NCBI RefSeq assembly: GCF_030282845.1
Contig: NZ_JASTWE010000012.1
Span: forward strand, 1 to 64,000
Direction: 5' to 3'
From: Pseudodesulfovibrio pelocollis
GTDB taxonomy: Bacteria; Desulfobacterota; Desulfovibrionia; Desulfovibrionales; Desulfovibrionaceae
DNA: 64,000 nt
The position numbers and the translations under genes were made by a program. This document shows positions 1,829 to 42,201 of the stretch, in pieces. Position 1 is the first letter of the stretch; each line of letters begins with the position of its first letter. The notes under the pieces were generated by a model. That model saw only the letters and a program-made list of their open reading frames with translations. It was not told the origin of the DNA and made no database searches.

Positions 1829-2005
1829 ATGGGCATGCTTTTCAAGATCATCGTCATCCTTGGGCTCATCTTCCTGATCGCCGGGCTGTTCACCAAGGGT
1901 AAGGCGGAGCGGGCGCAACGGCGCAACCGGACCACCAACATCCTGCTGGTGGTGCTCATTGCCATGCTCGCCATCTCCACCATCATGGGATTCCTCAACC
2001 GCTAG
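1829..2005 (+). CDS. Small two-helix membrane protein, unknown
   Basis: A 58-codon frame starting ATG GGC ATG. It encodes a hydrophobic helix (about residues 3-21), a short strongly basic loop (KGKAERAQRRNR) and a second hydrophobic helix (about 37-55). This helix/basic-loop/helix pattern fits a small inner-membrane protein with the loop in the cytoplasm. The upstream ribosome-binding site is weak. The next gene begins 12 bases after the stop, so the two may be cotranscribed. I do not recognise a family. Coding is supported by hydrophobic periodicity and high third-position GC, but a chance frame is not excluded. Confidence 0.5.
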   Translation: MGMLFKIIVILGLIFLIAGLFTKGKAERAQRRNRTTNILLVVLIAMLAISTIMGFLNR

Positions 2006-2017
2006 CGCCAACCAGCC

Positions 2018-3400: not shown

Positions 3401-3564
3401 GCCTGCACGGCCATCACGTCTCCCGCGCCAGGGCGTCACGTCCCGGAAGTTGGCCCCGGAAGCCGGACCCGGACTCTTTTGGATTTAGATTTATTCTAGA
3501 CGCTTTGCCACGCCATGTGCTACTGGCACAAGCACGGAAGGACTAACGCAAGAGGGCGAATCAA

Positions 3565-23089: not shown

Positions 23090-23134
23090 ACTTCCCCCTC
23101 CTGAAAGATAGCCAGGGAACACATTGCTTCACCG

Positions 23135-23190
23135 CCTGACGGAATTCTCGTCATTTCGCAGGCACCACATCGGCCATCCTCTCGCCTTGT
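23135..23190 (-). repeat. Intergenic leader-family member D (upstream of legI)
   Basis: This gap sequence shares blocks with the repeat at 30424-30499 in the same order: ACAAGGCGA, a CC/TGG/GC core, then TCC and TCAGG, read on the minus strand with small gaps. The gap holds no gene. Similarity is moderate and was aligned by hand. Confidence 0.4.
23162..23176 (-). promoter_or_regulatory. Possible sigma-54 (-24/-12) promoter for the legI operon
   Basis: The minus strand reads TGGCCGATGTGGTGC. The essential GG and GC are ten bases apart and 8 of the 10 fixed positions of TGGCAC-N5-TTGC match. It lies about 75 bases before the legI ATG. Sigma-54 commonly controls flagellar genes, which would suit flagellin glycan synthesis. 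The related leader copies do not all keep the GG, so this is tentative. Confidence 0.3.
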
Positions 23191-23213
23191 CCCATGTGAT
23201 TCAACCACCCAGC

Positions 23214-24059
23214 CTAACAACACTCCCACCACAGCATCTTCCTGCTTTTTTTTGCATCCAGCGCATCAGCCAGTTGCATCAAATGCCTTCTGTCCTCAGT
23301 GCATCGCGCATGAAGGTTGCCATATGCCTGCGCCAAGGCGGCATAGCCGGTAAAATGGTTATTCATGAATCGGTAGTGCGCCTCCTTCACCGCCAGACAG
23401 CGCAACAGGTAATCCGCGCCCAACAGGCCATGGCCTGCGAAACTCATCTCGTGCTGCCGATAAAACGTGGCCGCTTCCGCTGTGAACACGGCCTCGCGGC
23501 CAGACTCCAGCAATGCGCCATAGAGCGCCCAGTCAAAGGCCGGTATGTCGGCAGGAATGGTCAACTCCACCGCCAAAATGGCGGCCGCGACAGCGGTGTT
23601 GCCAAGACCAAGGCAATTGCCGCACCGGATGTCCTCTTTTGTCACCGCCTGCCCGTGATCAAAGACATGGGAGAACCAGGGATTTCCCACAACGCCGTCA
23701 GCGGTCATGGGAATCACGTCGTTGCAAACGATGGCAGCCCCCGCACCGATCAGTTTCCTGCTTTCCGCGACCCGGCCCATGCCCTGCACGTCGTCGCAAT
23801 CGGCAAAAACGATCACCTCCACCCGGCTCTCCAGGCAGCGGCGGATTCCCGCCATGCGGTTTACTCCGGGCGTGCCGGAGTTGGACACAAAAGAGACATC
23901 CAAGTCCCCGGTCCATCGTGTGACCTCGGCCTGATCCAAGCCATCGTTGACGATGAGCACGCCGAACTCCCTGTCGCGCTGCTCCAACAAGGAGCGGAAG
24001 TACGCCTCAAGGTAGGGCTCCACGCCCTTGAACACTGTGCCCATGACGACCGTTTTCAC
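23214..24059 (-). CDS. GT2-like glycosyltransferase
   Basis: A 281-aa GT-A protein. The N-terminus VFKGVEPYLEAYFRSLLEQ and LIVNDG resemble GT2 enzymes, and FADCDDVQ near residue 87 is the likely DxD metal site. The C-terminal third has no recognisable domain. It probably transfers a sugar to a polysaccharide or protein in the cytoplasm or at the membrane. The gene ends about 125 bases before the legI start, so it is the last gene of the preceding operon, in which it follows the methyltransferase gene by 20 bases. Confidence 0.75.
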   Translation of the reverse strand: MKTVVMGTVFKGVEPYLEAYFRSLLEQRDREFGVLIVNDGLDQAEVTRWTGDLDVSFVSNSGTPGVNRMAGIRRCLESRVEVIVFADCDDVQGMGRVAESRKLIGAGAAIVCNDVIPMTADGVVGNPWFSHVFDHGQAVTKEDIRCGNCLGLGNTAVAAAILAVELTIPADIPAFDWALYGALLESGREAVFTAEAATFYRQHEMSFAGHGLLGADYLLRCLAVKEAHYRFMNNHFTGYAALAQAYGNLHARCTEDRRHLMQLADALDAKKSRKMLWWECC

Positions 24060-24079
24060 GCCAACCTCCTCGCCTTCAC

Positions 24080-24985
24080 CTAACCCGTGCGTCGCGCCAG
24101 GAGGCGAAGCTGCTGCGCCCTGTTGGCCTGTGCGGGTCTGAAAGCGTCACCCCCCAGTGCGTTCCAGATCCTGAAATGGACATTGGCAATGGCCTGAAGG
24201 GGTTTTGCCAGTATCGGGAGTTTGTTGGCATTGGCCAGCCTGGTGCTCCATGGCAGTCTCATTGCAAACCGATCCAGCACCACGGGATCGAACCCATACT
24301 CCTTGCAAAGGCGCTCAAGGGATGAGGAGGGAAAGTACTGCCGGGCATGCCTGTTCATGCTATACTCCAGCACCTGCGCAGGCTCGCACCAGTCAATTTC
24401 GCGTACCGTGATGAACATGTACCCCCCCGGCTTGACGAGGGATTTTACCTTTCTCATGACCTTGTCGAGGCCGCTCAGATACGGCAGCACACTGGCCAAC
24501 ACGACCAGATCCCACTGCCCGTGGACCTCGACAGACTCGAAAAACCCGGTACGCACCTCCACCCCGTGCTGGTTTTTGGCCCGGACCGCGAAACCCTTGT
24601 CGTGGTCCACGCCCAAGACCTGCCACCCGAGATCACCCAATTCTCGCAGATCGTGGCCAAAGGCGCAGCCCACGCTGAGCGCCCTTGGCGAAGCCGGGAC
24701 GCCCAGGCGCTCAAGGTAAGAGATGATCCACCGCACATGGCTGCGGGCGTAATTCCAAAGCTTGTTGCTGCGATAATCCGAGGCGAACCCGGTCTCCTGG
24801 CTCTCAACGGACAGGGCTTCCACGGGATAGGGGTTGTCCGGGGTCGAATTGTCGATGAACAGCAGCCCGCATTCACGGCACCGATGAAACACCTCGCCCG
24901 TGGACCGCTCATGGTAAACAGGAGCCCCGGCGGTGCGGCAAACCGGACAGCAATCGTGGGGCAAGGTCTCTGGACGATCAGGCAT
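24080..24985 (-). CDS. Class I SAM methyltransferase with N-terminal zinc ribbon
   Basis: A 301-aa protein. It starts with two CxxC pairs (CCPVC, CREC) about 23 residues apart, a zinc-ribbon layout seen in sugar C- or O-methyltransferases of polysaccharide clusters. The SAM-binding motif is ALSVGCAFG near residue 92. The ATG at 24985 follows GAGGAG; a TTG one codon upstream is less likely. It lies 14 bases after the WbpG-like gene. The substrate may be the deoxyamino sugar of this island, but that is inference. Confidence 0.8.
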   Translation of the reverse strand: MPDRPETLPHDCCPVCRTAGAPVYHERSTGEVFHRCRECGLLFIDNSTPDNPYPVEALSVESQETGFASDYRSNKLWNYARSHVRWIISYLERLGVPASPRALSVGCAFGHDLRELGDLGWQVLGVDHDKGFAVRAKNQHGVEVRTGFFESVEVHGQWDLVVLASVLPYLSGLDKVMRKVKSLVKPGGYMFITVREIDWCEPAQVLEYSMNRHARQYFPSSSLERLCKEYGFDPVVLDRFAMRLPWSTRLANANKLPILAKPLQAIANVHFRIWNALGGDAFRPAQANRAQQLRLLARRTG

Positions 24986-24999
24986 CAATACTCCTCGAA

Positions 25000-26301
25000 T
25001 CAGAGCACGCTGAAGGTTGCCGCTTCTTCATCCAGCCTCGGATCGCCGCTCTTCTCCGGCGGGTTGTCCGGGTTGTAATAAAGAGCCCTGTTGTGGTGGG
25101 CAAAGACATGATCCGCCTCATCCAACGGGGCCTTGAGGGCCTCGTGGGTCTCGTCCGTCTCCTGCCGGTGGATGGCATCGGTCAGAACCCATTGCCCATC
25201 CTTGCCGCGCTCCCAGATGCCCGCCTCGCGCTGGCTGTCGAAAAGAGCCATGAACTCCTGGCGGCTCAACTCAAAGTAGTCGAGGTAGGTTGCCAAGGAT
25301 TTTGGCTCCACCGGGTCATACTCCCTGACCAATTCCACGCCCTCGGCCCGGGTCAGGCGCCCCAGGCGAATCTCGCGGCTGGCCGCGTCTGTGCCCCGCC
25401 CGTAGCCGAATTTGAGGAATTTCATGTAATCATGCACTTCGTTGGCATGGTCTTCAATGTGCGAGTAGAGGTTGAAGGTCCGGTCGCGATGGAAGGTGAC
25501 CGGGGCAAAATCCCATGTCTTCATCATCAATTCCGTCTGGGCCTTGGCTTCCCAGTTAATGAAATTGCTCAAGTAGATTCCGCGCATGTCCACCCTTTCC
25601 ACCTCTTCGGAAGAAGGGAAAAGGTAGGGGGCCATGTCGGTCATCTTAATGTCGTTGTCCGGGTCTTTGACAACATCGGCCACGTCCAGGCCGCGCATGT
25701 CGTACTGCTTGCGTGTCCAGCGGGTAAACTCCACGAAGTTCTTGAGCGAGAACATGCCGGTCAGTTCCGCGTACCCGTGTTCGCCCCAGATGACGAGCGG
25801 GATGTTCATCTGCGCCGAAACCTGGAAGGGCACAGTGTAGATCCCGGCGTGATAGTGCCAGGTCAGGTCGCCGACACGCTTCAGCATGAACCGGGAAAGC
25901 TTGCGCACCGAGTGGGGACTGGGCGTGATCCGTATCAGGTCACACCCGGATTTCTCCACCAGATTTTCCAGGTTGCGCCCTCCAGCCTGGGTGTTGAATG
26001 TGTGGTTGAACGCCACCAGAAGCGGGTTCATGCCATACTTTTCCTTCATGAGCCAGGTCTGAAAATGTGAGTCTTTCCCGCCACTTATCGGGATTATGCA
26101 ATCATAGATATTCCCCCTGCGACGCGCGTCGGCCTGGGCCTCTTCCAGCAGGCGGGCAAGCATCCGCTCCCGCTCTTCCCAGTTGATGTCGGCATCTTCC
26201 CGGCTCTCGTGGTACCGACAGCCGCTGCATACGCCCTCTGCATCGAAGATGATGGTTGGTTTTGCATTTTCCGGGTAGCAACAACGTTTGCAGTATCTCA
26301 T
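25000..26301 (-). CDS. N-acetyl sugar amidotransferase, WbpG/PseA/PtmG type
   Basis: A 433-aa ATP pyrophosphatase-type amidotransferase. Cysteines at 4, 7, 8, 25 and 28 (CKRCCYPE, CSGCRYHE) form a zinc-like site. The PP-loop SGGKDS lies at residues 73-78. The family converts an N-acetyl to an acetamidino group, using ammonia made by a HisH/HisF pair; that pair lies immediately upstream here (26298-27691). In Campylobacter PtmG or PseA gives amidinated legionaminic or pseudaminic acid. The sequence seen supports the reaction, while the exact sugar is unknown. Overlaps hisF-like stop by four bases (ATGA). Confidence 0.87.
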   Translation of the reverse strand: MRYCKRCCYPENAKPTIIFDAEGVCSGCRYHESREDADINWEERERMLARLLEEAQADARRRGNIYDCIIPISGGKDSHFQTWLMKEKYGMNPLLVAFNHTFNTQAGGRNLENLVEKSGCDLIRITPSPHSVRKLSRFMLKRVGDLTWHYHAGIYTVPFQVSAQMNIPLVIWGEHGYAELTGMFSLKNFVEFTRWTRKQYDMRGLDVADVVKDPDNDIKMTDMAPYLFPSSEEVERVDMRGIYLSNFINWEAKAQTELMMKTWDFAPVTFHRDRTFNLYSHIEDHANEVHDYMKFLKFGYGRGTDAASREIRLGRLTRAEGVELVREYDPVEPKSLATYLDYFELSRQEFMALFDSQREAGIWERGKDGQWVLTDAIHRQETDETHEALKAPLDEADHVFAHHNRALYYNPDNPPEKSGDPRLDEEAATFSVL

Positions 26302-27077
26302 GCCTTAACTCCGTTCGCGCTTCGAAATGGTAGGTTCTGATCCAGCAGATATCGTTTGGCTTTCTTGCAGCTATTTTCCGAGTAATGAAAAACATTGGCG
26401 GCAGCCACGGCGTCCAGGCCAGCCTGCTCCACGCCTTCCTTGAGATGCCCCCACTCGGACACCCCGCCAAAGCCGATGACAGGAATCGAGACGGCACGCT
26501 TCACCTTGGCCAGGCAATCCAGGTTATACCCCCGGCACATTCCGTCATGTTCGATGGAATTCACGAACAGTTCCCCGGCACCGAGTTGCTCGGCCTCCCG
26601 AGCCCAATCCACGACCGCTGTGGCTGTGAGCCTCGCGCCGCGATCAATGCAGACGCGCTCTACCCCGTCAGCGTCTTTTCTTGCGTCAATGGAAACAACC
26701 ACGCATTGCCGCCCGAGGCGGTCGGCAAGCAGCGGGACCAGGGTGCGATCCTCGAAAGCCCGCGTGTTGAGCACCACCTTGTCCGCACCGCAATGAAGCA
26801 GGTCAACAGCGTGCTGCTCGGTCTCGATCCAACCGCCCACGACATGAGGCAGGAAGCAGGCGTCGGAAAGCTCGGCAACAACGTCAAGAAATTGTCCACG
26901 GCTTTTTGACGAGCGGCTGACATTGAGCGTCATGATCTCATCGACAGCCCACTTGTTGAAGCAGTCCATGGCAAAGACCGGATTGTCGTGAATCTTGTGC
27001 GGGTGCCTGAACTGCTCGCTTTGGACGATTTTGCCATCGCAAACGACCAGCACGGCGACGAGGCGCTTCTTCAACAT
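26298..27077 (-). CDS. hisF2: HisF-like cyclase subunit of the amidotransferase
   Basis: A 259-aa beta/alpha barrel homologous to imidazole glycerol phosphate synthase HisF. The two catalytic aspartates are kept (CDG at 12-15 and SIDAR with Asp131). The phosphate-binding GVSEWG and GADKVV loops are present. In sugar clusters such a HisF channels ammonia from HisH to a WbpG-type protein rather than making histidine. No other his genes lie here, which supports that role. Overlaps hisH by seven bases and WbpG by four. Confidence 0.85.
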   Translation of the reverse strand: MLKKRLVAVLVVCDGKIVQSEQFRHPHKIHDNPVFAMDCFNKWAVDEIMTLNVSRSSKSRGQFLDVVAELSDACFLPHVVGGWIETEQHAVDLLHCGADKVVLNTRAFEDRTLVPLLADRLGRQCVVVSIDARKDADGVERVCIDRGARLTATAVVDWAREAEQLGAGELFVNSIEHDGMCRGYNLDCLAKVKRAVSIPVIGFGGVSEWGHLKEGVEQAGLDAVAAANVFHYSENSCKKAKRYLLDQNLPFRSANGVKA

Positions 27078-27691
27078 GGCAACTCCACGAAATTCTTGAG
27101 GACACGCAGTCCAAAGTGCTGGCTCTTCTCTGGATGAAACTGGGTGCCAAACACGTTGCCGCGCTCCACGGCAGCCACGAATGGCTCCCCATACTCACAG
27201 GTGGCGGCAACATCAGACGAATCGCAGCAAGCCACCTTGAAGCTGTGGACGTAGTAGAAGTCCGCTCCCTCGGGTACGCCTGCCATGATCGCCTTGCTGT
27301 TGACCGGCCTCGTGTCGTTCCATCCCACATGCGGCACCGACAACCCGGGGGTGTCCGCAAACCGCGTGACAGCCCCGCGCAGCCAGCCCAGACCGGGGGT
27401 CTTCTCTCCCTCGTGTCCCATCTCCATGATGAGCTGCATGCCCAGGCAAACCCCCAGGAACAATTTGCCCCTGCCCACGACCTGCTCGTTCAGAGCCTGA
27501 ACAAAACCGGTCTCGTTCAGGTAGGCCATGGCCTTGGGGAACGCCCCCACTCCCGGCAGAATGATCTTGTCGCACCGTTCAAGTTCCCCAGGGCTTTTCA
27601 CGACCATCCCGCCATCGCAACCAACCGCCTTGAGGGCGTTGATGACCGAGCGAAGGTTTCCGGCCCTGTAGTCAATGACACCTATCTTCAT
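27071..27691 (-). CDS. hisH2: HisH-like glutamine amidotransferase subunit
   Basis: A 206-aa class I glutaminase with the nucleophile in GVCLGMQ (Cys82) and the catalytic FHPEKS near residue 185. It releases ammonia from glutamine for the HisF-like barrel. The ATG at 27691 follows GGATGA; an upstream start would add a non-family tail. The trio HisH-HisF-WbpG, overlapping throughout, matches the amidine module of Pseudomonas O antigens and Campylobacter flagellin sugars. Gene order along the transcript is hisH, hisF, wbpG, followed by the methyltransferase. Confidence 0.87.
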   Translation of the reverse strand: MKIGVIDYRAGNLRSVINALKAVGCDGGMVVKSPGELERCDKIILPGVGAFPKAMAYLNETGFVQALNEQVVGRGKLFLGVCLGMQLIMEMGHEGEKTPGLGWLRGAVTRFADTPGLSVPHVGWNDTRPVNSKAIMAGVPEGADFYYVHSFKVACCDSSDVAATCEYGEPFVAAVERGNVFGTQFHPEKSQHFGLRVLKNFVELPC

Positions 27692-27710
27692 CACATCATC
27701 CTGCCTGGCC

Positions 27711-29069: not shown

Positions 29070-29142
29070 GGGCGATCCTTGTCTTGTTGGTCGATCCAGC
29101 AATATCCGTTCCGACCGGGTTTGCGCGGGCTCGCACTGTTGT

Positions 29143-29177
29143 CCAGCCAACAACGCTCCCCTGTTTCGCTTGTCTCA
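29143..29177 (-). repeat. Intergenic leader-family member C (upstream of the 29069 gene)
   Basis: On the minus strand this stretch resembles the first part of the repeats at 30424-30499 and 31445-31520 (AAGCGAAACAGGGG then AGCGTTG and GCTGG), with internal gaps relative to them. It is the weakest of the assigned copies and abuts the sulfotransferase stop. Confidence 0.28.
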
Positions 29178-30407
29178 TCATGCGCAATCAGTGGCATGCG
29201 CTTCCTCCCTGCCCGACGTCTTCTGCACCAACAGGAAGGCATGAATGTCGTCGTGCAAGAAAAAGTGACGGGCGTCGCGCGCATTGAGCCCGGCTCGCAG
29301 CGCGCCATGCCGATTCCCCTCCATGGACAGCTCAAGGCGGGTGTCCTCCAGCGTGTACGGCTCAAACCGGCGGATCCACATGGCAAGACTCTCCCGTGGC
29401 ACCACCGGAGGATCATCCAGCATTCGTCGTGTTGCATCGGCATCGGGTCCATGCACCGGCTCATAGCCGAACAAGCCCATCTCCGGTGCGCACAGGTAGT
29501 CCACCAAGGCGATCTCTCCTTCGGACAGGCTGCTCTGCCATCGACCAAGGGTGCTCGTGTCGAATGCTGTCCCGCCACGGCCAAAGGCACTGTTCTGAAA
29601 CCATGGAAGGTTCAGACCGTTGACGAAGGAAGAGAGATCCGTCATGGCGGGGTGCCATTCGATGTCGAGAAAATCGCACATTTTCCGAGAGACCGCCGCG
29701 GGCTCAGTGATCACGTCTTCAAAACGAAGCGTCAGGACACGGCCGGACAACGCCGGATCGTGGCCATACCAATATGCCAGCGCTGCGATCTTGCGCCACT
29801 GGCGGGCCATGAAAACCGGAGGATACTGGGCCATGCGAAATTTCTTTGAGGCAAAAACCGCACGCGGATCGCGCACAAGGCAGACAAAACGCATTTCAGG
29901 AAAGGTTCTGGCCAGGGCGGGCACAAACTCAGTGGCCCATACCTCCTTGAAACCAACAATACCGGTGGCCCGGTCCCCGTACTCCTCCCTGATGAGCGTC
30001 AGCAGTTCCTCCAGGAGTTCTGCATAGGTGGCTCCGCCCGCCGACCCCGCCCTCGGGGCCAACAAGGGAGAGTACTGCGGATGCTCCGCGCACCAGGTCG
30101 CAATGCGGGCCAGCAGCTCGGCCCTATCCGCTTCCTTGAGGGGCAGATGGAGGTCTGCTTGCTGCACGGCCCGGAACACGTCAGCCTGCCGCCCGAAGGC
30201 ATAGTCAGCCAGCGGAGACTCAAACCCCTCGGGGATGTCCGCACCATGCCGGGAGGCAATTGCGTTACGCAGAAACTTGAAGAAGGGAAACAACCCGTCG
30301 GACGCCAGGGCGATCCGCGGATGGGCGTGCAACAGCCTGCCGGTCAGGGTGGTTCCTGAACGAAACATCCCGGAAAGAAAGACGGTCTGCAGAGTGTTGG
30401 GATTCAT
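29178..30407 (-). CDS. Sulfotransferase family protein
   Basis: A 409-aa PAPS-dependent sulfotransferase. The 5'-phosphosulfate loop SGMFRSGTT lies at residues 12-20, the 3'-phosphate motif LVRDPRAVFAS near 175, and a GFKEVWATE strand between them. It would add sulfate to a sugar or protein in the cytoplasm before export. The ATG at 30407 follows AGGAGC; upstream in-frame residues are leader, not protein. Sulfation within a nonulosonic-acid island is uncommon. Alone in its segment: 110 bases from the methyltransferase gene upstream and 108 from the next gene. Confidence 0.83.
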   Translation of the reverse strand: MNPNTLQTVFLSGMFRSGTTLTGRLLHAHPRIALASDGLFPFFKFLRNAIASRHGADIPEGFESPLADYAFGRQADVFRAVQQADLHLPLKEADRAELLARIATWCAEHPQYSPLLAPRAGSAGGATYAELLEELLTLIREEYGDRATGIVGFKEVWATEFVPALARTFPEMRFVCLVRDPRAVFASKKFRMAQYPPVFMARQWRKIAALAYWYGHDPALSGRVLTLRFEDVITEPAAVSRKMCDFLDIEWHPAMTDLSSFVNGLNLPWFQNSAFGRGGTAFDTSTLGRWQSSLSEGEIALVDYLCAPEMGLFGYEPVHGPDADATRRMLDDPPVVPRESLAMWIRRFEPYTLEDTRLELSMEGNRHGALRAGLNARDARHFFLHDDIHAFLLVQKTSGREEAHATDCA

Positions 30408-30423
30408 GATGCAGCGCTCCTGC

Positions 30424-30499
30424 TGCCTAACCTGAGGGACTTTCCAGCCTGGAGCTGCATCCATGCTGGCACATCGCCTTGTTTCTGTTCACATGCTCA
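30424..30499 (-). repeat. Intergenic leader-family member A (upstream of sulfotransferase)
   Basis: 76 bases that align without gaps to 31445-31520 at 53 of 76 positions by my hand count. It lies 17 bases before the sulfotransferase ATG. Its minus-strand 3' end reads CAGGTTAGGCAG, followed by an AGGAGC ribosome-binding site. Matches are scattered along the whole length, so it is a diverged duplication rather than one short motif. Other gaps contain weaker relatives. Confidence 0.8.
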
Positions 30500-30517
30500 T
30501 CAACATCAGCCGCATCT

Positions 30518-31435
30518 TTACAAATCATCATCTTTCCTGGCTATGAACTCCAAGCACCCGCCACCATACATCAAGCGACTCAAATAGTGGTCATAATTAT
30601 AGTGCAGCGGGCTAAAATACCGCCGTATATTTTTACGCTTGATGTAGCGCCGCAGTCTTCGGGGAGAGCAAAACCCGTTTCTCGTGTACATTTCAATATG
30701 CTGCTCTTCGGAAACGGGAATACGGACAGGCGCCTGACAGATATTCTGAAGAGTGACAAGCAAGTCCAAATCAAGCAACGATTTCAGAAAGCCCAGATCG
30801 ACGCTCTCTTCTTCACGGGTAACCATTTCATTCTGAACAAAATCAACAATTTCGGCAACGTCCTGAGGCGTAGTGTGGTCAACAAAGTCCTTGAAGTCCT
30901 CATTGTTCAAATAATAGTTTCGAAGGGCTGGATACAGGCAGTCGCGCCAGATGCCTCCCTCTTCACCCAAGACAGTATAAAGCATTCCACCCGGCTTGGT
31001 GACTCTCGCCAACTCCTTGAACGCCTGCTCGACTTCCGCATAGTTGTTCAGATGGACCATGACACCGTGGCAGGCCACAAAGTCGAATGATTCGTCTTCA
31101 TAAGGTATGGAGAGGATATTACCGCTTTTCAAGTTCACGCATTCCAAAGGCACTCCATATTGCTCAAGGCTGGATTTTGCCACAGGTATAAACTCATCTC
31201 CAAGATCGAAAGCGCATATTTCCTTCGACCCTAGCCGGTGAAGCGCTATCATGAGCTTTGCCGTGTCTCCACACCCTGCATCGAGAACCTTTTTCCCCAG
31301 AAAATAATCGTCCTCAAGTTGGAAATATTCCATCGAGAACATATTGATAAACCGCTCCATTGCGACTTCATCTTGCGAGATGCGTTCATGCTGCTTATGA
31401 TAAACTTGTCGTGTCTTTTCTGAGTAATCATGCAT
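30518..31435 (-). CDS. Class I SAM-dependent methyltransferase
   Basis: A 305-aa methyltransferase with SAM motif I VLDAGCGDTAKL near residues 50-61, an acidic FDLGDEF second strand, and a Methyltransf_11-like core (SFDFVACHGVMVHL, VTKPGGML). It is the AT-richest gene of the island, which suggests a separate origin. It stands alone between two gaps that contain the paired repeats 30424-30499 and 31445-31520, as if it were an inserted cassette. Its substrate may be the surface sugar. The start at ATG 31435 has a weak AGGTG ribosome-binding site. Confidence 0.85.
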   Translation of the reverse strand: MHDYSEKTRQVYHKQHERISQDEVAMERFINMFSMEYFQLEDDYFLGKKVLDAGCGDTAKLMIALHRLGSKEICAFDLGDEFIPVAKSSLEQYGVPLECVNLKSGNILSIPYEDESFDFVACHGVMVHLNNYAEVEQAFKELARVTKPGGMLYTVLGEEGGIWRDCLYPALRNYYLNNEDFKDFVDHTTPQDVAEIVDFVQNEMVTREEESVDLGFLKSLLDLDLLVTLQNICQAPVRIPVSEEQHIEMYTRNGFCSPRRLRRYIKRKNIRRYFSPLHYNYDHYLSRLMYGGGCLEFIARKDDDL

Positions 31436-31791
31436 AATAACACCTGCCTAACTTGAGCGATTCCCCAACCTGACACAACATCAACGCTGGATCATAGCCC
31501 TGTGTTTGCTTACATTATCACCCGGCCGCGACCTCATGACCGTTTCGCCCATTTGGTCGAGGGCCGGATGTCCAACCTCAAGAGAACCAAAACACTGGTC
31601 ATCAACGATGTCCATGCTGCGAAGGACAGCCTGACAGGTCGGGCCGGGCTCGATCTCTTGGCGCGCCACCTGCCTGGCATCGCCCTTTTCCCTCGCATCA
31701 ATCGTCTTTCCGGCTCCGGGCCTGGCGCCTGATTTTCCTTGCTTTTCTCCCGGGTCAACCACTGCCGGGGCTGCTCCGCACGCCAAGGGTT
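31436..31791 (-). other. Intergenic region without a recognisable gene (356 bases)
   Basis: Between the methyltransferase start and the ptmE-like stop I find leader copy B (31445-31520) and 270 further bases with no supported gene. A 134-codon minus-strand frame (31481-31885) starts inside ptmE in another frame and has no ribosome-binding site or known domain. A stretch near 31580-31610 (TGTTTTGGTTCTCTTGAGG on the minus strand) resembles part of the gap before 43491. A promoter for the methyltransferase is likely here, but I cannot place it. Confidence 0.5.
31445..31520 (-). repeat. Intergenic leader-family member B (upstream of methyltransferase)
   Basis: Ungapped partner of 30424-30499 (53/76 identical by hand). 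It ends ten bases before the methyltransferase ATG and supplies its weak AGGCAGG ribosome-binding region. Both copies sit in the same position relative to the following gene and in the same orientation. Confidence 0.8.
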
Positions 31792-32865
31792 CTAGAAATC
31801 CTTCCTGCGGGTGGCGTCGTTGTTCGCCTGAAGATAGTCCTTGGGGCACCCGATATCGAGCCAGTATTCCCGAACGGGAAAACACCCGACTCCCATGCCC
31901 TGCCTCTCGATGACGGCCCGAATAAGTTCGGGCATGTCATAGGGGCAGCCGCGTGGCACCAGGTCCAGGGCTTCGGGGGAGATCACGTAAACACCCGCGT
32001 TGACGTAGTACTCGAACTCCGGCTTCTCTTCTATCTCCCGGACGATGGTATCCTCCAGCTTGACCACCCCATACGGGATGGTCACATGGTGTTTCCACAC
32101 GGCGGTAGTGATGATCCGCCCTTCATTGTGGTGGTATTCCAATAGTCTTTCAAAATCCAAGCCGGTGAGGACATCGCCATTGATCACAATCACCGGCTCC
32201 ACCGGCTTGGACTTCAGCAGGCCGAGGCAGCCAGCAGTGCCCAGCGGTTCATTCTCCCTGAGGTAGGAAATGGAAACGCCGAACTTGCCGCCGTCACCGA
32301 AATGCTCGGTGATCCGCTCGGCCAAGTAGTTTACTGATAAGGATATATTCAGGAAACCACTCTCCCTCAACCGCTCGATGATGATCTCAAGCAGCGGTCG
32401 CCCGCCCACGGGCAGCATGGGCTTGGGCGTCTCCTCGGTCAGGGGGCGCAGCCGCATGCCCCTGCCCCCGGCCAGGATGACGACGTTGTTGGAATGGAGC
32501 ACGGAGCGACCAAACAGCTCGCGCGTGTTCACCAGGGCCACGGGCCTGTGTTCCGAATCCACGACCGGCACCCATATGTGATGCTTGGACTGCTGCAAGT
32601 CCATGAGTTCCTGTATCGGGTCCTTGCTCGTGACGCACGCCGGGGTGGTGGTCATGATTTCCGAGATGGGCAGGGTCAATTCCACTCCGCGCAACAGCGC
32701 CTTGCGGATATCGGAGTCGGCCACGACGCCCTGCAACCGGCCTTCATCGTCCACAGCCAGAACCAGGGCATTGGATGCGTCCAGCATTTTCACCGCATCC
32801 ATACAACTTAGACGTGCATTCAAAACCACTCGTGGAAATGTTTCAAGATAATTTCTGAGGTTCAT
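31792..32865 (-). CDS. ptmE: CBS-domain nucleotidyltransferase, PtmE-like
   Basis: A 357-aa protein with a pair of CBS domains (about residues 10-115) fused to a sugar-1-phosphate nucleotidyltransferase (from about 124: ILAGGRGMRLRPLTEETPKP, with VINGDVLT later). This fusion is typical of Campylobacter PtmE, which makes GDP-glucosamine for legionaminic acid. The CBS pair probably senses adenine nucleotides. Overlaps the upstream SpsF-like gene by four bases as ATGA. It is the last gene of the long overlapping operon beginning at 42069. The GDP specificity is inferred from the domain fusion. Confidence 0.85.
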   Translation of the reverse strand: MNLRNYLETFPRVVLNARLSCMDAVKMLDASNALVLAVDDEGRLQGVVADSDIRKALLRGVELTLPISEIMTTTPACVTSKDPIQELMDLQQSKHHIWVPVVDSEHRPVALVNTRELFGRSVLHSNNVVILAGGRGMRLRPLTEETPKPMLPVGGRPLLEIIIERLRESGFLNISLSVNYLAERITEHFGDGGKFGVSISYLRENEPLGTAGCLGLLKSKPVEPVIVINGDVLTGLDFERLLEYHHNEGRIITTAVWKHHVTIPYGVVKLEDTIVREIEEKPEFEYYVNAGVYVISPEALDLVPRGCPYDMPELIRAVIERQGMGVGCFPVREYWLDIGCPKDYLQANNDATRRKDF

Positions 32866-33611
32866 GATCCCCTCGCAGAGCTGAATGGTTCATGCAAATG
32901 ATGATTCGAGGTGTCGCCCATGCCAGCCAGTGTTTCAGCCACCTGCTCCACGGTAAAACCGTACCCGCTCCGGGCCGGATCGATTCGCGTCAGGATCTCC
33001 GTAACGAGACGCTCGTCCTCCGGGTAGTCCACGGTGACGAAAAAGCCGGTTGCAGCCCGGTCCGCCATCCTCAGGAAGCGGCTCGAAAACACGACTTCGT
33101 CAAGGGGCAGGAACCCTTTTTTCAATCGGTCAGGATTTCTCGCGCCGTAGCGGACGTACTCGCGCTCCAGGGCATCGGTCCTGAAGGCCATGGCCGCCAT
33201 GCCCACGGGCCATCCGCTCGCATGGGCGGTGGTGGTGAACTCCGCACTGCCTGTCCGGTGTGCGGCCACGATCTCCCGCAGCCCGTAAGGGCAGACCAGA
33301 GGATCGTCGCCCTGAAGACGAACAAGGTTCGCAAGCCCGAAATGGCGTGCCGCATCCAGCACTCGCCCGGTCACGTCTTCCTCTTCGCCAATAAAGCAGT
33401 CCAGCCCCCGCTGCGCGCAATACCTCTCTATCTCTCGGCTTGTTGCGGTCGTGGCAACGATCAGGGGCATGTCTTCGAGCAAACCGGAGCATTCCACGCG
33501 GCGCACCAGATGCTCCAGAAGGGGCACACCGTGCATGTTTGCCAACGCCTTGTTGGGCAACCGCGTCGATCCGAGCCGGACCTGGAGGATGAAACCGATG
33601 TCCCTGTTCAT
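32862..33611 (-). CDS. SpsF-like cytidylyltransferase family protein
   Basis: A 249-aa protein of the SpsF/COG1861 type, with the nucleotide-binding start ILQVRLGSTRLPNKAL near residue 8 and LQGDDPLVCP near 97. The family is related to CMP-sugar synthetases and would activate a sugar acid with CTP. It sits directly after the divergent NeuB-like gene (9 bases) and before ptmE, so a likely substrate is the product of that synthase. This would be a second activation route in addition to the canonical cytidylyltransferase at 40290. The assignment of CMP is inferred. Confidence 0.78.
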   Translation of the reverse strand: MNRDIGFILQVRLGSTRLPNKALANMHGVPLLEHLVRRVECSGLLEDMPLIVATTATSREIERYCAQRGLDCFIGEEEDVTGRVLDAARHFGLANLVRLQGDDPLVCPYGLREIVAAHRTGSAEFTTTAHASGWPVGMAAMAFRTDALEREYVRYGARNPDRLKKGFLPLDEVVFSSRFLRMADRAATGFFVTVDYPEDERLVTEILTRIDPARSGYGFTVEQVAETLAGMGDTSNHHLHEPFSSARGS

Positions 33612-33620
33612 CGCATCCGC

Positions 33621-34670: not shown

Positions 34671-34672
34671 GG

Positions 34673-35902: not shown

Positions 35903-38013
35903 TGTTCTGCTCCGGATAGTTTCTGCTCGTACTGCTGGACCAACTGGCTCACGATACTTGAATACCTCTCGACTTCCCACAGGCGCACATTGCCAAAAAT
36001 CCAATCCTGGTCCTTGCCCTCCTCGTATGGGACCACGGTGTCGGACGGCAAACGGAAGGGGACTCGCCTCGACTTCAGAACCTCCTCATGGATGGCTTGG
36101 GCCGCCCTCTTGCAGGCCAAACCGTCAATGTCGCCGTAATGGGCTCGCGTGATTTCACCAACCACGGCTTCGTCCGCATTGGACCTGCCCAGTTCAACCC
36201 CGTTGATGAGCTCCCTGAGCTCTTCGCATTGTTGGCAGGAAGGCGACAGCCTGGAAATGGGCAAATACTCCGGTGTCGGATCAGCAAAGCTCAAGGCCGG
36301 AATTGACAGGAAATGCCCTTCAAGGGCGGTCGTCGATCCCGCATGGATGATCAGGTCAACGCAAGAGAGCAGAACCGGCATGTATTCATCCATGATAACA
36401 GGGACTTTCATCTGCCGCTTCTTGAAGAAGGACTCATATGCCTCCACGCGCTCACCCGGGTGGGGGCGCATGATAAAATTCCACCTGTCCCCCATCTCCC
36501 GGTACAGACGATGAAGGGCATCCAGCCAGGTGGCCCGGCCCTTTTTGCACATGCCGACATAGGCCTCCACCATGGGGTCCAATTGCTCGGCCCGGCCCTT
36601 TTTGCGGGCCGATTCCGGGATAGCCGTGGCGGGATCGCGGTCAGCATGCGCCCAGCGCGCGCAAAAAATCATTACCGGCTTTTCGGGGTCCAGCCCGTAC
36701 TGCTTGAGGTAGGCTTCTTTTGAAGGAAGGTACGGACCCAGCGAGCCCATCCTGTAGATATCGAAAAGCATGGCCCCGACCGAAATGGTCGCCTCCTGGG
36801 GCATGTACCCGAAGGTTGATGTGACATCCGCCGGCTCGGGGCCGGACATGACCTCCAGATCCACGAGATCGGAATAATCGTTTTTCCCGATCCACCAACT
36901 TCTTCTGCCCTCATCCGCATATTCCCAACTCGAATAGGTATGCCCCGCTTCCTCCCGGCGGACAATGGAGACGACATTGCGGGCACGGGCAAACTGGGCC
37001 AACTCGAACTTGAATGGCGTGGTCCGTTCGCCCCAGACCACGGCGTGTGGCAAGAGCTCCACCAGGCTCTCCTTCAGTCGGTTCAGTGACGGGCGCACAT
37101 AGGTTTCGTAGCCCATTCTTTCAAGCCACAGGCGAAGGAGCAGGACGATGAAAAGGTCGCGCTGCTTGCGTCCGACGCAGAGCAGGATGCGTTTTTTCCC
37201 GGGCTCCCGGGGCGGTGTGGCAGAGAAGAGGTGGCATCGCAGCTGCGCCAGTTCTGTCGCCATCGGTTCGGCAACCGCGCCCCTGGCAAGGGACAATCGG
37301 CTCATCCACCCTTCGTGGTCCCTTTCAAGCAGCCGGTCCAGGCCCTCATCCATCTGCCCGCGCCTGGCCACCGCTTCCCCTTCCAGATAAATCCTGGCTG
37401 GCGCGAACAGCGGGAATTCCCTCGCGATGGACCGGGCGGTTTCCGTCATCACCGGGTCTCCCCACGCCTTGCCCAGCAACTGCCGGAGAAAGGATGATGG
37501 CGGGGCGGCCAATGCCGTCTTCCCGGCAACGCGCAACAGGAACCACGCGGTATCGACAAGGACGCGCTCCGGCATTTTCCCGAATTCCAGCATGTCACGG
37601 CAAACCATGGCTTGCACCGGGAAGCACACCTTTTCCAGGTCCTCCAACTGCCGGACGCTGCGGCAGACAACGGCAGGACGATGGCGCAGCACAAACTGCT
37701 TTATCGCGTACTCGTCTTCATTGCGCACCTTGAGCGACGTGCGGCCTATGTCCATGACCAGGGGGATTCCAGCGGGCATGTCCACGAATTGGACAAACCT
37801 GGGGCCAGGGCACAGGGAGTCAACGACGGCAAGAATGATATCGGCCTCCCTGCACGCCTCCCCTGCCGCGTTCGACGGCCCCCACATGGCCCCGGGCGGC
37901 GTCTCCCCGCCGCCGAAGTGGTGGCACAAACAATCATGCCCCATTTGGGTGTACGCCGTGATCTGTGCCGAAACACGTGGATCAGAGGAGTTCGTGAGAA
38001 TGGCTATGCGCAT
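35899..38013 (-). CDS. Surface carbohydrate biosynthesis protein (GT-B-like, large)
   Basis: A 704-aa cytoplasmic protein. The C-terminal half shows RPHPGERVEAYESF near residue 514 and HAGSTTALEGHFLSIP near 555, typical of the surface-carbohydrate/CDP-glycerol-phosphotransferase-like group. The first 200 residues resemble a separate GT-B-like domain (MRIAILTNSSDPRVSAQ). Together this may be a fused glycosyltransferase. The start at ATG 38013 was chosen because upstream sequence belongs to the neighbouring gene. It overlaps the propeller-like gene by ten bases and the aminotransferase by four. Linkage and sugar are unknown. Confidence 0.72.
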   Translation of the reverse strand: MRIAILTNSSDPRVSAQITAYTQMGHDCLCHHFGGGETPPGAMWGPSNAAGEACREADIILAVVDSLCPGPRFVQFVDMPAGIPLVMDIGRTSLKVRNEDEYAIKQFVLRHRPAVVCRSVRQLEDLEKVCFPVQAMVCRDMLEFGKMPERVLVDTAWFLLRVAGKTALAAPPSSFLRQLLGKAWGDPVMTETARSIAREFPLFAPARIYLEGEAVARRGQMDEGLDRLLERDHEGWMSRLSLARGAVAEPMATELAQLRCHLFSATPPREPGKKRILLCVGRKQRDLFIVLLLRLWLERMGYETYVRPSLNRLKESLVELLPHAVVWGERTTPFKFELAQFARARNVVSIVRREEAGHTYSSWEYADEGRRSWWIGKNDYSDLVDLEVMSGPEPADVTSTFGYMPQEATISVGAMLFDIYRMGSLGPYLPSKEAYLKQYGLDPEKPVMIFCARWAHADRDPATAIPESARKKGRAEQLDPMVEAYVGMCKKGRATWLDALHRLYREMGDRWNFIMRPHPGERVEAYESFFKKRQMKVPVIMDEYMPVLLSCVDLIIHAGSTTALEGHFLSIPALSFADPTPEYLPISRLSPSCQQCEELRELINGVELGRSNADEAVVGEITRAHYGDIDGLACKRAAQAIHEEVLKSRRVPFRLPSDTVVPYEEGKDQDWIFGNVRLWEVERYSSIVSQLVQQYEQKLSGAEQ

Positions 38014-39032
38014 GGAGACGTCTCTCCTCTGCCCAGGTCCGCTGAAGGAATCGAGAGCAAAAACTCCAACGGGATCAGCGTCACCGGCGCGCCATCCGCC
38101 CGGAGCACGCAAACACCGCCAGGGATCGCGATCATCTGGACAACCCTCTCTGGGCCGGAAAGACGGCAAACACCGACAACAACACCGCGTCTGTCGCAAA
38201 TGGATATCTCGTGGTTGGTGGCAACCACGACCAAGCCCCCGCAGCACAGATAGCCCTTTGGAGACTGTGGCAGACTGGTGCGGAACACTGTCTTGGGCGC
38301 ACGGGTTTCAAGTCCCATGGTGGCAAGGCTGGGAAACCAGGAATCACCAAGCGCCAACCCCTGCTCCGTTTCGACGAACTCGCGTGGCAGAAACAGTGGC
38401 CCTGCAACGTGATGTCGAAGGTCACCAAGGGTCTCCGCATCAACGGAAAACACCAACCGTGGATGGTTCTTCACGGAATAGTCGCCAATGATGTACAATC
38501 GCCCGTTCCAGACTTTACAGGCAACAATCCGGGACACGCTTTCCGATCCAACCCCCAGGGATTCCAGGGTGAATTCCATTTCCAGCCGCCCGGCCCCATC
38601 CAGGCGGGCGAACCGGCGGCTGATGCTGCCAGCCACCCAGAGGGTGTCGCCACTCCCGCAACAGACTGCCCGCTCAAAGGCGGGGTGCTCAAGTGAGCGG
38701 GTATGCTTACCGTTGCGGAAGCAGTGGATGGTAGGCTGTGAATGCTCAGTCACCACCAGCGTATTCCTGCCTGCCCAATATCCCAAATGGAAGCCCGCAT
38801 TGATAATGCTGCCACTCAACACCGTTCCCGGCACAGGCCCGTCGTGGAGTTGGGCATGGCGCTCGATCTCGTCGCCAGAGAGCACGAATTGCCTGCTGCC
38901 AAGGCAAGACCACTCGTTGCCCCAGACAAAGGCCGCATCCTGGCCGTTGGCCACGACACTGTCGGCAAGCCTGTCCGTGACAAAGGCGAGATGGTCAAGC
39001 CGCATTGATGGTATCTTGTTTTGCTCTGACAC
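38004..39032 (-). CDS. Hypothetical beta-propeller-like protein
   Basis: A 342-aa protein without a named family. Repeated units with GDTLWVAG, NGRLYIIGDYS and GLVVVATNHE every 40-50 residues suggest a beta-propeller. The start GTG at 39032 has AAGGGA at ribosome-binding distance; ATG 39005 lacks one. It is interleaved with its neighbours: it overlaps the 427-aa protein gene by 38 bases and the surface-carbohydrate gene by 10. Such heavy overlap suggests the three genes moved together and act together. No signal peptide is evident, so it is likely cytoplasmic. Confidence 0.62.
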   Translation of the reverse strand: MSEQNKIPSMRLDHLAFVTDRLADSVVANGQDAAFVWGNEWSCLGSRQFVLSGDEIERHAQLHDGPVPGTVLSGSIINAGFHLGYWAGRNTLVVTEHSQPTIHCFRNGKHTRSLEHPAFERAVCCGSGDTLWVAGSISRRFARLDGAGRLEMEFTLESLGVGSESVSRIVACKVWNGRLYIIGDYSVKNHPRLVFSVDAETLGDLRHHVAGPLFLPREFVETEQGLALGDSWFPSLATMGLETRAPKTVFRTSLPQSPKGYLCCGGLVVVATNHEISICDRRGVVVGVCRLSGPERVVQMIAIPGGVCVLRADGAPVTLIPLEFLLSIPSADLGRGETSPCA

Positions 39033-40278
39033 GCTGGCCCATCCCTTGATCCTTGAAAATGGAATAACGCAACAAATCGAAGGAACTGCGTACGATCAGA
39101 GACGCCTCTTCCTGAACGTTGACCCCTTTGACGCGCCCGCCAAGCAGCAGTTTTTCGTATTGGCCAAGCATGGCCAGTGTACCCACCAGCACATGTTCCG
39201 TCATTTCAAACACCTGGGGGAAGGCTTGCCGCCCCCAGATGTAGCCGCCAGATGGCAAGACCGGTCGCATGGTCCGCTTTTCAAAGCTCCAATAGCCATC
39301 GCGAGGCTCAAAACGGTCAGAGTCGTCATAGTGACCACGCTCAATGCCCTGCCGCACCATAAAGAAAATTTGTCCTGCCAATTCGGCAGTATCAACCTCC
39401 ACAGGGGGTCTGTTCCTGCCGATTGCCTTCACCACACGGCCCATTCCCTGCTTCGTCACCCCAAACAGGGTCACACTCAGGCTTTCCGCGCCGGGAAACG
39501 CATCATCACACAGGTGCAACACGGTCCGGTTCCTGCCATCGGTCCCAAGCAGGACCACCGGCACCTGGCCGCGCCCATCCAATCCGACATACTTTGGAGA
39601 AAAGTTCCGGTCGTACGAACCCCGGAACACAAATGAAGCCAGCCCTCCCTCACGCAGCCACCTGACGGCGTTCTCCCGGTCACACGACGACTCCAAGGGG
39701 ATGCGCGGCTCTTGCGCTCTCTCGGCTATGCGAAGCAGGTCCTGCTCCCAGGCGTAGTCAAAGGGGGCACTGCGCAGCCAGCCATCCCCTTGAGGACCGT
39801 CGCCGGAGACAAGCGGAAACATCTCGCTGACATGAAGGATCTTGTACAGGGCACGCAGTTGACAGGGATGCTCGCTCGCCTTGCGGCATGAGGCAACCAC
39901 ATGAGACGGGTCCGCCTCATGAATCTTCAAGGCGCTCGCCAACATCCGGCCGGAAAGGAGCGGAGCATACCCCGATAAGACCGCCACAGGAGCCTCCTTG
40001 TCCATGCCGCCTGCTCCCAGGGCGCGAAAAAACTGCTCGCTGTTTTCGGGAAGAGACAGAGAAAGAACCCGGCCTGGAACACGGAAGACCCCCAGTCCTC
40101 GCGACGCAAGCCGCCGGGCCATGGCTTCGCTGCCGACAGCAGCCATTATTCGCCCACCCCCGGCACTCTCTCGGATACTCCCGATCAACCGGGCAAGGCC
40201 GCTATCCAGGTACTCTTCAAGCCAGACGTCTCCCTCGGGTTCGGGAAACCGGAGAACTACGGTATGCTTCTTGTTCAT
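38995..40278 (-). CDS. Uncharacterised protein of the glycan island
   Basis: A 427-aa protein I do not recognise. The N-terminal region (AVLSGYAPLLSGRMLASALKIHEADPSHVVASC) is reminiscent of the middle of CMP-sugar synthetases, so it could hold a degenerate nucleotidyltransferase fold, but the LAR-SKG nucleotide-binding start is missing. The C-terminal part has GYIWGRQAFPQV and several basic runs. It lies 11 bases after the cytidylyltransferase gene and overlaps the propeller-like gene by 38 bases. Its operon place suggests a role in nonulosonic acid transfer or assembly. Confidence 0.6.
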   Translation of the reverse strand: MNKKHTVVLRFPEPEGDVWLEEYLDSGLARLIGSIRESAGGGRIMAAVGSEAMARRLASRGLGVFRVPGRVLSLSLPENSEQFFRALGAGGMDKEAPVAVLSGYAPLLSGRMLASALKIHEADPSHVVASCRKASEHPCQLRALYKILHVSEMFPLVSGDGPQGDGWLRSAPFDYAWEQDLLRIAERAQEPRIPLESSCDRENAVRWLREGGLASFVFRGSYDRNFSPKYVGLDGRGQVPVVLLGTDGRNRTVLHLCDDAFPGAESLSVTLFGVTKQGMGRVVKAIGRNRPPVEVDTAELAGQIFFMVRQGIERGHYDDSDRFEPRDGYWSFEKRTMRPVLPSGGYIWGRQAFPQVFEMTEHVLVGTLAMLGQYEKLLLGGRVKGVNVQEEASLIVRSSFDLLRYSIFKDQGMGQRVRAKQDTINAA

Positions 40279-40289
40279 CTCTTTGTGGC

Positions 40290-40979
40290 CTATGCTATTG
40301 TGTACAGCTCTCTTGAAAGCACTTGCTCTGCCAGAACAAGATCCGTCAGTGAATCGATATCTATCAACTCTGCCGGATGATCAAGGACATGGCAGTAAGG
40401 GTTGTCTACCCGACCTCGACGATGGCCATAAAAGGTTCCGTACGATCTGACCCAGGCCATGCCCTGCTCGTTGAGACGGTTACTGTCTTCAATGACCGTC
40501 ACCGTGCCTCCTTCTCCCATCCGGACAAAACTGTTGCGTTGCGTTTGGATTCTCCTGGCAGTGTAGACCGGGCTGAATCCCTGCAATCCCTTGTTCACCA
40601 GTTCGTTGATGACACGAGACTGCCGGAAGGGGTGCGTCGGATACAGGCTGGCCGAAAAATCGGGCACATATCCCTCTTCCTCCCGAAGCCACTCATGGAG
40701 CTGTTGTTCCACCTCGCCAGGCCTGACGGAATCGCCGCCGAGATGCTCGGGCCTCAAAAAAGGAACCTCCGCTCCGTAGTCCCGGGCGATCTGGGCGATT
40801 CTCTCGCTGTCGGTCGAGACGATCACTCGTTCGAAGGCGGGCACGGCCAGGGCCACCTCAATGGTCCAGGCCAACAACGGCTTGCCATGGAGCGTGCGGA
40901 TGTTCTTGTGCTTGAGGCCCTTGGAATTGGCTCTGGCCAAAATGATGGCCAAGGCTTTTTTATTGTTTTCTTCAGGCAT
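40290..40979 (-). CDS. neuA: CMP-nonulosonic acid synthetase (NeuA/PtmB/LegF-like)
   Basis: A 229-aa cytidylyltransferase with the nucleotide-binding motif LARANSKGLKHKN at residues 14-26 and VIVSTDSE near 52, close to standard CMP-sialic acid synthetases. It activates the sugar acid with CTP before transfer. Its closest pathway role is LegF/PtmB, given LegI and LegB in the same island. The ATG at 40979 lies eight bases inside the 2-epimerase gene, which precedes it in the operon. Substrate specificity is inferred. Confidence 0.88.
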   Translation of the reverse strand: MPEENNKKALAIILARANSKGLKHKNIRTLHGKPLLAWTIEVALAVPAFERVIVSTDSERIAQIARDYGAEVPFLRPEHLGGDSVRPGEVEQQLHEWLREEEGYVPDFSASLYPTHPFRQSRVINELVNKGLQGFSPVYTARRIQTQRNSFVRMGEGGTVTVIEDSNRLNEQGMAWVRSYGTFYGHRRGRVDNPYCHVLDHPAELIDIDSLTDLVLAEQVLSRELYTIA

Positions 40980-42069
40980 GTGACGCCCACCCCCGTTCAG
41001 CCAAATCCTCCACGATGCGCAGGGCGGCCCGTCCATCCCACAGCTTTGGCCTGGCAGACCCTCTCCCTGCCCCGTTCAAGCCCAGGAAAGCCTCTTCGAT
41101 CCCTTGGGGTTCCACCAGTCGGTTCGTCCCCTCCGAGCAGGTTATGGGTCTCTCGGTGTTGGGCCGAACAGTCAAACAGGGAACACCCAGGACAGTGGTC
41201 TCCTCCTGTATGCCCCCGGAATCGGTGACAACGGCTCTTGCCCCGACAACCAAAGACATGAACCCGATGTAGGGAGCGGGGTCGCAAAGCCGGACACCGC
41301 CCGCGCGCAGGCGCGAGTCATGGCCATCCTTCTCCAACGCGGCCAGCGTTCTCGGATGGCAGGGCCAAATGACGGGAACACTTTTTCCCATGCTCACAAG
41401 GGCGTTGACGATGCTCTCCAATCGTTGGGGGATGTCCGTATTGCTGGGCCGATGCAGTGTCACCACGACATATTCGCCCCGCTTGACTCCGAAGGCTTCC
41501 CACTGTTTGGCCGCTTCAAACGACGGCAGGAATGAGAGGAGCGAATCGATCATGCAATTGCCGACACACGTGATTTTCTCTTGGGCGATTCCTTCGCGAA
41601 GAAGGTTATCCGTGGCGTCCGGAGAAGGCGTCCAGTGAATGGATGCCAGGCTGTCCGTGAGCCTGCGGTTGATCTCTTCGGGCATGGTGTCGTCAAAGCT
41701 GCGCAGACCAGCCTCCAGGTGGGCAACGGGGACATGGAGCTTGGATGCGGCCAAGGCACAGGCCAGAGTCGAATTCACATCCCCGGGGACAATAACCAGA
41801 TCCGGCCTGCTTTCCTGCAAAAACGCTTCATATCCGATCAGGACCGCCGCCGTTTGCCGGGCATGCGACCCTGACCCCGCCCTCAGGTTGACGACCGGCC
41901 GGGGCAGCTTCAACTCATCCCAGAAGGCACTGGAAAGCAGGTGGTCGTAGTGTTGACCGGTGTGAACCAGCTCAAGCTCGTAAGAGCCGCTGGCCGAGAG
42001 GGCGCTCCAGACAGGGGCTATCTTCATGTAATTCGGCCGGGTCGCCACCATCAGGTGTATTCGCTTCAT
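40972..42069 (-). CDS. UDP-GlcNAc 2-epimerase family (WecB-like)
   Basis: A 365-aa GT-B-like epimerase with ATRPNYMK at residues 9-16, HTGQHYD, PGDVNSTLA, HLEAGLRSFD and VTDSGG. The hydrolysing NeuC/LegG enzymes usually carry a RAD(Y/F)G start; here it is RPNYMK as in non-hydrolysing WecB. So it may provide ManNAc-type sugar rather than free mannosamine. In the legionaminic pathway this step would need LegG; whether this enzyme fills it is open. First gene of the nine-gene overlapping operon ending at 31792. Leader copy E lies just upstream. Confidence 0.83.
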   Translation of the reverse strand: MKRIHLMVATRPNYMKIAPVWSALSASGSYELELVHTGQHYDHLLSSAFWDELKLPRPVVNLRAGSGSHARQTAAVLIGYEAFLQESRPDLVIVPGDVNSTLACALAASKLHVPVAHLEAGLRSFDDTMPEEINRRLTDSLASIHWTPSPDATDNLLREGIAQEKITCVGNCMIDSLLSFLPSFEAAKQWEAFGVKRGEYVVVTLHRPSNTDIPQRLESIVNALVSMGKSVPVIWPCHPRTLAALEKDGHDSRLRAGGVRLCDPAPYIGFMSLVVGARAVVTDSGGIQEETTVLGVPCLTVRPNTERPITCSEGTNRLVEPQGIEEAFLGLNGAGRGSARPKLWDGRAALRIVEDLAERGWASHA

Positions 42070-42100
42070 ATCCTCACCCTCTTTCGCTTTTCCCCGCGCC

Positions 42101-42130
42101 CTGTTCTGGAACGCCTTGTCGCTTCACGTG
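42101..42130 (-). repeat. Intergenic leader-family member E (upstream of the 2-epimerase)
   Basis: On the minus strand it reads CACGTGAAGCGACAAGGCGTTCCAG. It shares CA(C/T)GTGAA and ACAAGGCG with 30424-30499 in the same order, separated by a two-base gap difference. Only about 30 bases can be matched. It lies 32-60 bases before the ATG at 42069. Confidence 0.4.
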
Positions 42131-42201
42131 GATGACAGCCCCACACTGTTGTGCGAACTTACTCAAGTGAAACAAGTGCATTACGCGATCATCCTGGCCG
42201 A

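Follow-up and report, generated by a model that had tools for sequence, protein, structure and literature searches.

Insertion sequences (ISs) of the IS1380 family are about 1.6-1.7 kb long and generate short target-site duplications of 4-5 bp. Two members of this family, ISEcp1 and ISPme1, are described in an excerpt of PMC9330008 as carrying adjacent genes that lie beyond their 3' end, the carried DNA being closed by a downstream repeat that is mistaken for the proper one. According to the same excerpt, both elements bear outward promoters; it also cites Potron et al. for a trimmed ISEcp1 remnant in front of a resistance gene, in which most of the IS is deleted and the remaining end (about 200 bp) is presented as a lasting promoter.

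Here we compare these systems with a surface-glycan island in a 64,000-nucleotide stretch of Pseudodesulfovibrio pelocollis DNA (the window). Five intergenic sequences of this island (copies A to E) had been proposed to form a family of leaders. We find that A and B are almost certainly the worn left (transposase-start) ends of two dead IS1380-family copies, and no regulatory role is needed to explain them. They belong to the same IS family as the gene-carrying ISEcp1 and ISPme1 modules and, like the trimmed ISEcp1 remnant, have lost most of the IS and kept one end. In contrast to the modules, in which DNA past the 3' end is carried, only left ends are visible at A and B. An ordinary cause thus takes the place of a supposed regulatory family. 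The finding is of an ordinary sort, in that leftovers of a known IS family were mistaken for leaders, although the methyltransferase gene bracketed by A and B means that it is not wholly trivial. Coordinates are collected in Table 1.

Table 1. Features of the window discussed in the text.
Feature	Position	Strand	Description
Copy C	23135..23208	+	Possible strongly decayed IS end; ties best of 1814 windows, absent from profile searches
Sulfotransferase gene	29178..30407	-	Pfam Sulfotransfer_3 (2.4e-26); downstream of A
Copy A	30426..30501	+	Solitary left-end remnant (CCTAACCTGAGGGACTT...) of an IS1380-type IS
SAM methyltransferase gene	30518..31435	-	305 aa; Pfam Methyltransf_11 (2.5e-19); bracketed by A and B
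Copy B	31447..31718	+	Left end of an IS1380-type IS with transposase start
Transposase N-terminal remnant	31541..31717	+	59 codons, inside B; tblastn match to L062
CBS/nucleotidyltransferase gene	31792..32865	-	Pfam NTP_transferase and CBS; upstream of B

Similarity between copies A and B

The likeness of A and B, placed at 30424-30499 and 31445-31520 in the initial annotation, was borne out, with 53 of 76 positions identical in an ungapped comparison. A repeat search of 18000-48000 independently recovered the pair as a direct-repeat family (D2). Aligned locally to the gap around B, A scored 60 (shuffle mean 25.1, sd 3.7), a value that none of 1000 dinucleotide shuffles reached; the same was true of 1000 shuffles in the reverse direction. 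Both copies have the same orientation and carry CCTG directly outside CCTAAC. The outer end of A, at 30426, lies 18 nt ahead of the sulfotransferase start codon (30407, - strand) and its inner edge is 16 nt off the methyltransferase stop codon. The outer end of B lies 11 nt ahead of the methyltransferase start codon (31435, - strand). It is because the outer ends sit 11-18 nt ahead of start codons that A and B look like leaders.

Identification of the insertion sequence

We searched positions 29178-31525 in 60 genomes, namely the own genome, 35 of the same genus and 24 of the order. Beyond the own locus this gave six matches in five genomes, all congeneric, and every match fell on A or B. In the six compared copies, similarity begins at an identical terminal base (CCTA...). 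The A/B sequence of G009 and G017 continues inward into a reading frame resembling the frame beside B. The frame of the G002 copy is broken, with two pieces that match the IS1380 transposase family, and the G004 copy shows DNA similarity over 213 bp only, with no transposase frame listed. By blastn, A was 78.9% identical to the G017 copy over 76 bp and 84.4% identical to the G004 copy over 64 bp; B was 77.9% identical to the G009 and G017 copies over 271 bp.

Transposase family assignments were obtained from the relatives. The remnant inside B was 47% identical over 59 residues to the 507-aa L062 transposase (tblastn, E 5.5e-11); on its own this fragment scored no NCBIfam family. The L062 and L068 proteins scored 233 and 251 bits against NF033539 (IS1380 family transposase), both over the cut-off of 180, and the G009 piece scored 137 bits, under it. 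Against PF13701 the G009 protein was over the cut-off with 64 bits and one G002 piece under it with 28 bits; two N-terminal pieces gave no score.

An nhmmer profile built from the six congener copies, with A and B left out, found A (50.6 bits, E 8.8e-15) and B (45.0 bits, E 4.8e-13), both from the terminal base; the next-best match in the window scored 4.6 bits. A sequence model of the six-copy alignment gave 11 matches in 7 of the 36 genus genomes at E<=0.001. Six of these were the rows of the model, and the other five were A, B, a second G004 end, a weaker second G002 end and a second G005 copy. The initial annotation had recognised no named element in these sequences, and the IS1380 family supplies the name. 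In the own genome, no IS end besides A and B was found in the genus scan (E<=0.001) and NF033539 had no match at E<=0.001, so that no intact parent IS is present there. Among the 36 genus genomes, NF033539 was over its cut-off in one (G012).

Comparison with complete elements

The G002 element (L010 1972-3542) is 1571 bp long, and its ends, CCTAACCCGAGCGATTCTCC and CCTAAATCGGGCGCTTCTAC, form an inverted pair matching at 15 of 20 positions, with TCCTC on either side. We fetched 11 loci of Desulfosarcina alkanivorans, whose element belongs to the same transposase family (NF033539/PF13701) as the relatives of the A/B sequence. With the partial locus L097 left out, ten copies were measured; they were 1723-1724 bp long, all ten were flanked by a 5-bp direct duplication, and 42 of the 50 duplicated bases were A or T. 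The G009 copy has a target duplication in which 4 of 5 bases match, and four other relatives examined (L064, L066, L069, L085) had no clear one. The terminal inverted repeats of seven relatives' elements match at 10 to 18 of the first 20 nt, and all begin CCTAA.

The alignments of A and B with relatives in the same genus cover the left end, so that the two copies show only half of the terminal pair. Unlike whole IS1380 elements they are fragments, with no visible right end or working transposase: B retains 272 bp of the IS and A just the outermost 76 bp. Right ends for A and B were not found by searching the window with three exact 9-mers or by blastn of the IS bodies, and consequently no target duplication can be demonstrated for them. 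A literature search linking IS1380 with Desulfovibrio returned nothing relevant, as judged by titles and the beginnings of abstracts.

Two further copies deserve mention. In G004, a solitary 56-nt IS end (L015 about 2740-2795, - strand; G004:C1:2833739-2833794) is located upstream of a gene for an IS66 transposase. On the inner side it terminates in ATCGCTCAGG, which repeats the core of the terminal repeat in inverted form, and it is perhaps an internally deleted mini-element. The IS1380 copy at G009 L011 5350-7066 (G009:C94) is apparently inserted at an IS1595-type transposase gene.

Origin of copies A and B

Of 72 aligned positions, A shares 57 with the G004 copy and 56 with the G017 copy, and B shares 56 with each of the G009 and G017 copies, compared with 49 between A and B. 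Being closer to copies elsewhere than to each other, A and B represent two IS variants and, judged from these alignments, probably two separate insertions. Alternatively, a single remnant could have been duplicated locally together with the methyltransferase gene, which would fit the shared orientation and the CCTG outside both ends. We consider this very unlikely, as each copy is nearer to those of other genomes than to its neighbour and B carries 196 bp more of the IS than A.

In the separate-insertion history, IS1380 copies would have entered A+T-rich gaps of the island one at a time. If the island copies shared the target preference of the D. alkanivorans relatives, which duplicate mostly A/T, then in this G+C-rich island the target sites would mostly fall in gaps ahead of start codons. 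The IS bodies would have been lost after insertion, leaving the lengths seen today.

Proposed copies C, D and E

We next consider the other three members of the proposed family. Each was aligned with A, with B and with the IS-end consensus (counts are given in that order) and compared with 1000 shuffles per test. For C, the observed score was equalled or exceeded by 449, 43 and 8 shuffles when the whole gap was used and by 76, 536 and 0 when the originally proposed interval was used. The corresponding counts for D were 262, 14 and 393 (whole gap) and 9, 385 and 44 (proposed interval), and those for the E gap 667, 85 and 219. A second control comprised 1814 windows of the same 64 kb, the sites' own windows included. 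The score was reached by 341, 12 and 2 of these for C, by 341, 3 and 384 for D, and by 1089, 204 and 384 for E. One of the two top windows for the IS consensus is C itself, hence its tie for best. The match of B to D lies at about 42149-42196, outside the block at 42101-42130 that had been proposed. None of the three was listed by nhmmer up to E 1000, nor did blastn hit any of them at E<=1 when the bodies of three ISs were the queries. Taken together, the outcomes for C, D and E range from mixed to negative.

Of the five-copy family, then, A and B are real, D and E are not established, and C is a weak match that may be a strongly decayed IS end. Its assignment as a diverged G002-type member was rejected, since 103 of the 1814 windows score equally high. 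The gap at 23090-23213, between the GT2-like gene and the NeuB gene 22019, seems by eye to be much shorter or absent in the related island of G130; it may hold a decayed insertion (copy C).

Gene order around the remnants

To compare gene order we used G130, a genome of the same family and another genus, whose island (G130:C1:3048000-3085000; L115, L121) is largely collinear with the window. The collinear genes are 35899, the aminotransferase, NeuB, cytidylyltransferase, sulfotransferase, 27711, HisH-like, HisF-like and 25000 genes and methyltransferase-24080. The sulfotransferase homologue of G130 (51%) directly follows the cytidylyltransferase gene, its start overlapping the stop (ATGA). Between the same two genes the window has the nucleotidyltransferase gene, B, the methyltransferase gene and A; the CBS/nucleotidyltransferase gene and the cytidylyltransferase gene (32862-33611) share 4 bp. 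Both remnants thus stand at junctions that are not the same in the two islands. The methyltransferase homologue of G130 is at the opposite end of the island, before the 20044 homologue. In the G130 island itself no IS end was seen: the top score in L115 was 5.4 bits (E 0.3), and L121 had nothing at E<=1. The order also differs at the epimerase 20044, SDR, GT2 and second NeuB genes, with no clear IS end found at these places.

The methyltransferase gene is poor in G+C: its content is 46.5%, and that of the other measured island genes, from 20044 to 43560, is 56-61%. In 348 genomes of the order, including the own, its only other match at E<=1e-25 was the G130 homologue (72% identical). No close homologue was found in the 35 genus relatives, the best match being 35% identical over 134 residues (G008). 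The sulfotransferase likewise had no close homologue among the 35; its best matches there were 29% (G019) and 36% (G022) identical. In G019, G022 and G314, where sulfotransferase homologues are 29-36% identical, gene order is too different for a comparison of the junction.

The comparison with this one related island gave a break at the A and B junctions, and suggests IS-linked shuffling. Since the order relative to G130 breaks at the methyltransferase gene, the IS copies may have been involved in its arrival or move. On the strength of this one comparison genome we hold that view tentatively, as somewhat less probable than its opposite. The gene would then have been brought in or moved through either composite-type transposition or recombination of one IS copy with another. 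The alternative suggestion of the initial annotation, that the repeats mark cassette boundaries, survives in part: A and B are mobile-element ends at methyltransferase junctions that differ from G130, yet only two of the five copies qualify. The locus offers a modest example of IS remnants at rearranged points of a surface-glycan island, and bears on how such islands diversify.

Promoter and leader predictions

In the window as a whole, Rfam gave no match at the gathering score. When 30380-31900 was scanned for the sigma-70 consensus, three sites came up, none of them on the - strand, the strand of the genes. In the consensus fold of eight aligned ends, the covariation term was 0.02 and both sides changed in 2 of 13 pairs. 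A leader RNA was rejected because Rfam and the consensus fold were both negative. A sigma-54 promoter, considered because inspection by eye showed a GG-N10-GC spacing in all of A, B and C, was dropped once the continuity with the IS was seen.

The idea of a shared promoter or leader coregulating modules is not upheld, the sequence being an IS end with part of a transposase attached and showing no Rfam match, - strand sigma-70 site or covarying fold. In its strict form, a glycan-island promoter or RNA leader family with no link to mobile DNA, it accounts for the shared orientation and the similar start-codon distance of A and B. For these two it is refuted by the transposase continuity in congeners. 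Some copies also have unrelated neighbours, namely genes for an IS66 transposase, a DNA-methylase-like protein (under the cut-off) and a PAS/GAF sensor, and C, D and E are weak or absent; such a family is extremely improbable.

A tamed remnant, with IS ends retained as promoters or leaders of the methyltransferase and sulfotransferase genes, is a different matter. The position of the outer ends agrees with this, as do the outward promoters of ISEcp1 and ISPme1 and the lasting promoter of the trimmed ISEcp1 end (excerpt of PMC9330008). A and B also stand between genes whose G130 homologues abut, where a new promoter could be needed. In contrast to the trimmed ISEcp1 remnant, for which that excerpt describes a promoter, none was found for A and B by the sigma-70 scan; there is no covarying fold, and ISPme1 carries genes beyond its 3' end (same excerpt) whereas A and B are left ends. 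We regard taming as unlikely, and a regulatory role of A and B as possible but unsupported.

Genes beside other left ends

In a transposable module of the ISEcp1/ISPme1 type the captured DNA adjoins the 3' end, and an imperfect second end and a target duplication close it. In the window the methyltransferase gene is between two direct left ends, and no right end or duplication was found. The same layout occurs in G002, where a glycosyltransferase gene (Glycos_transf_1) lies between two direct left ends (L010:548-618 and 1972-3542; G002:C1), one of them diverged (29.4 bits, E 2.7e-6). IS1380 left ends might thus form lasting borders of sugar-modification cassettes that hold one gene each, possibly doubling as outward control sites, and the element might move genes lying outside its left end. 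We give this reading only a small chance of being right; if true, such movement would be unlike that of ISEcp1 and ISPme1.

Among the other copies, one in G003 flanked on either side by methyltransferase genes and one in G004 next to a pectate-lyase-like gene could have a link with sugars or sugar modification. The remaining ones adjoin genes of the IS66 (G004) and IS1595 (G009) types, a DNA-methylase-like gene that is under the cut-off (G017) and, in G005, genes for a PAS/GAF sensor and a MotA-like protein, the second of these under the cut-off. The IS element is not confined to glycan islands.
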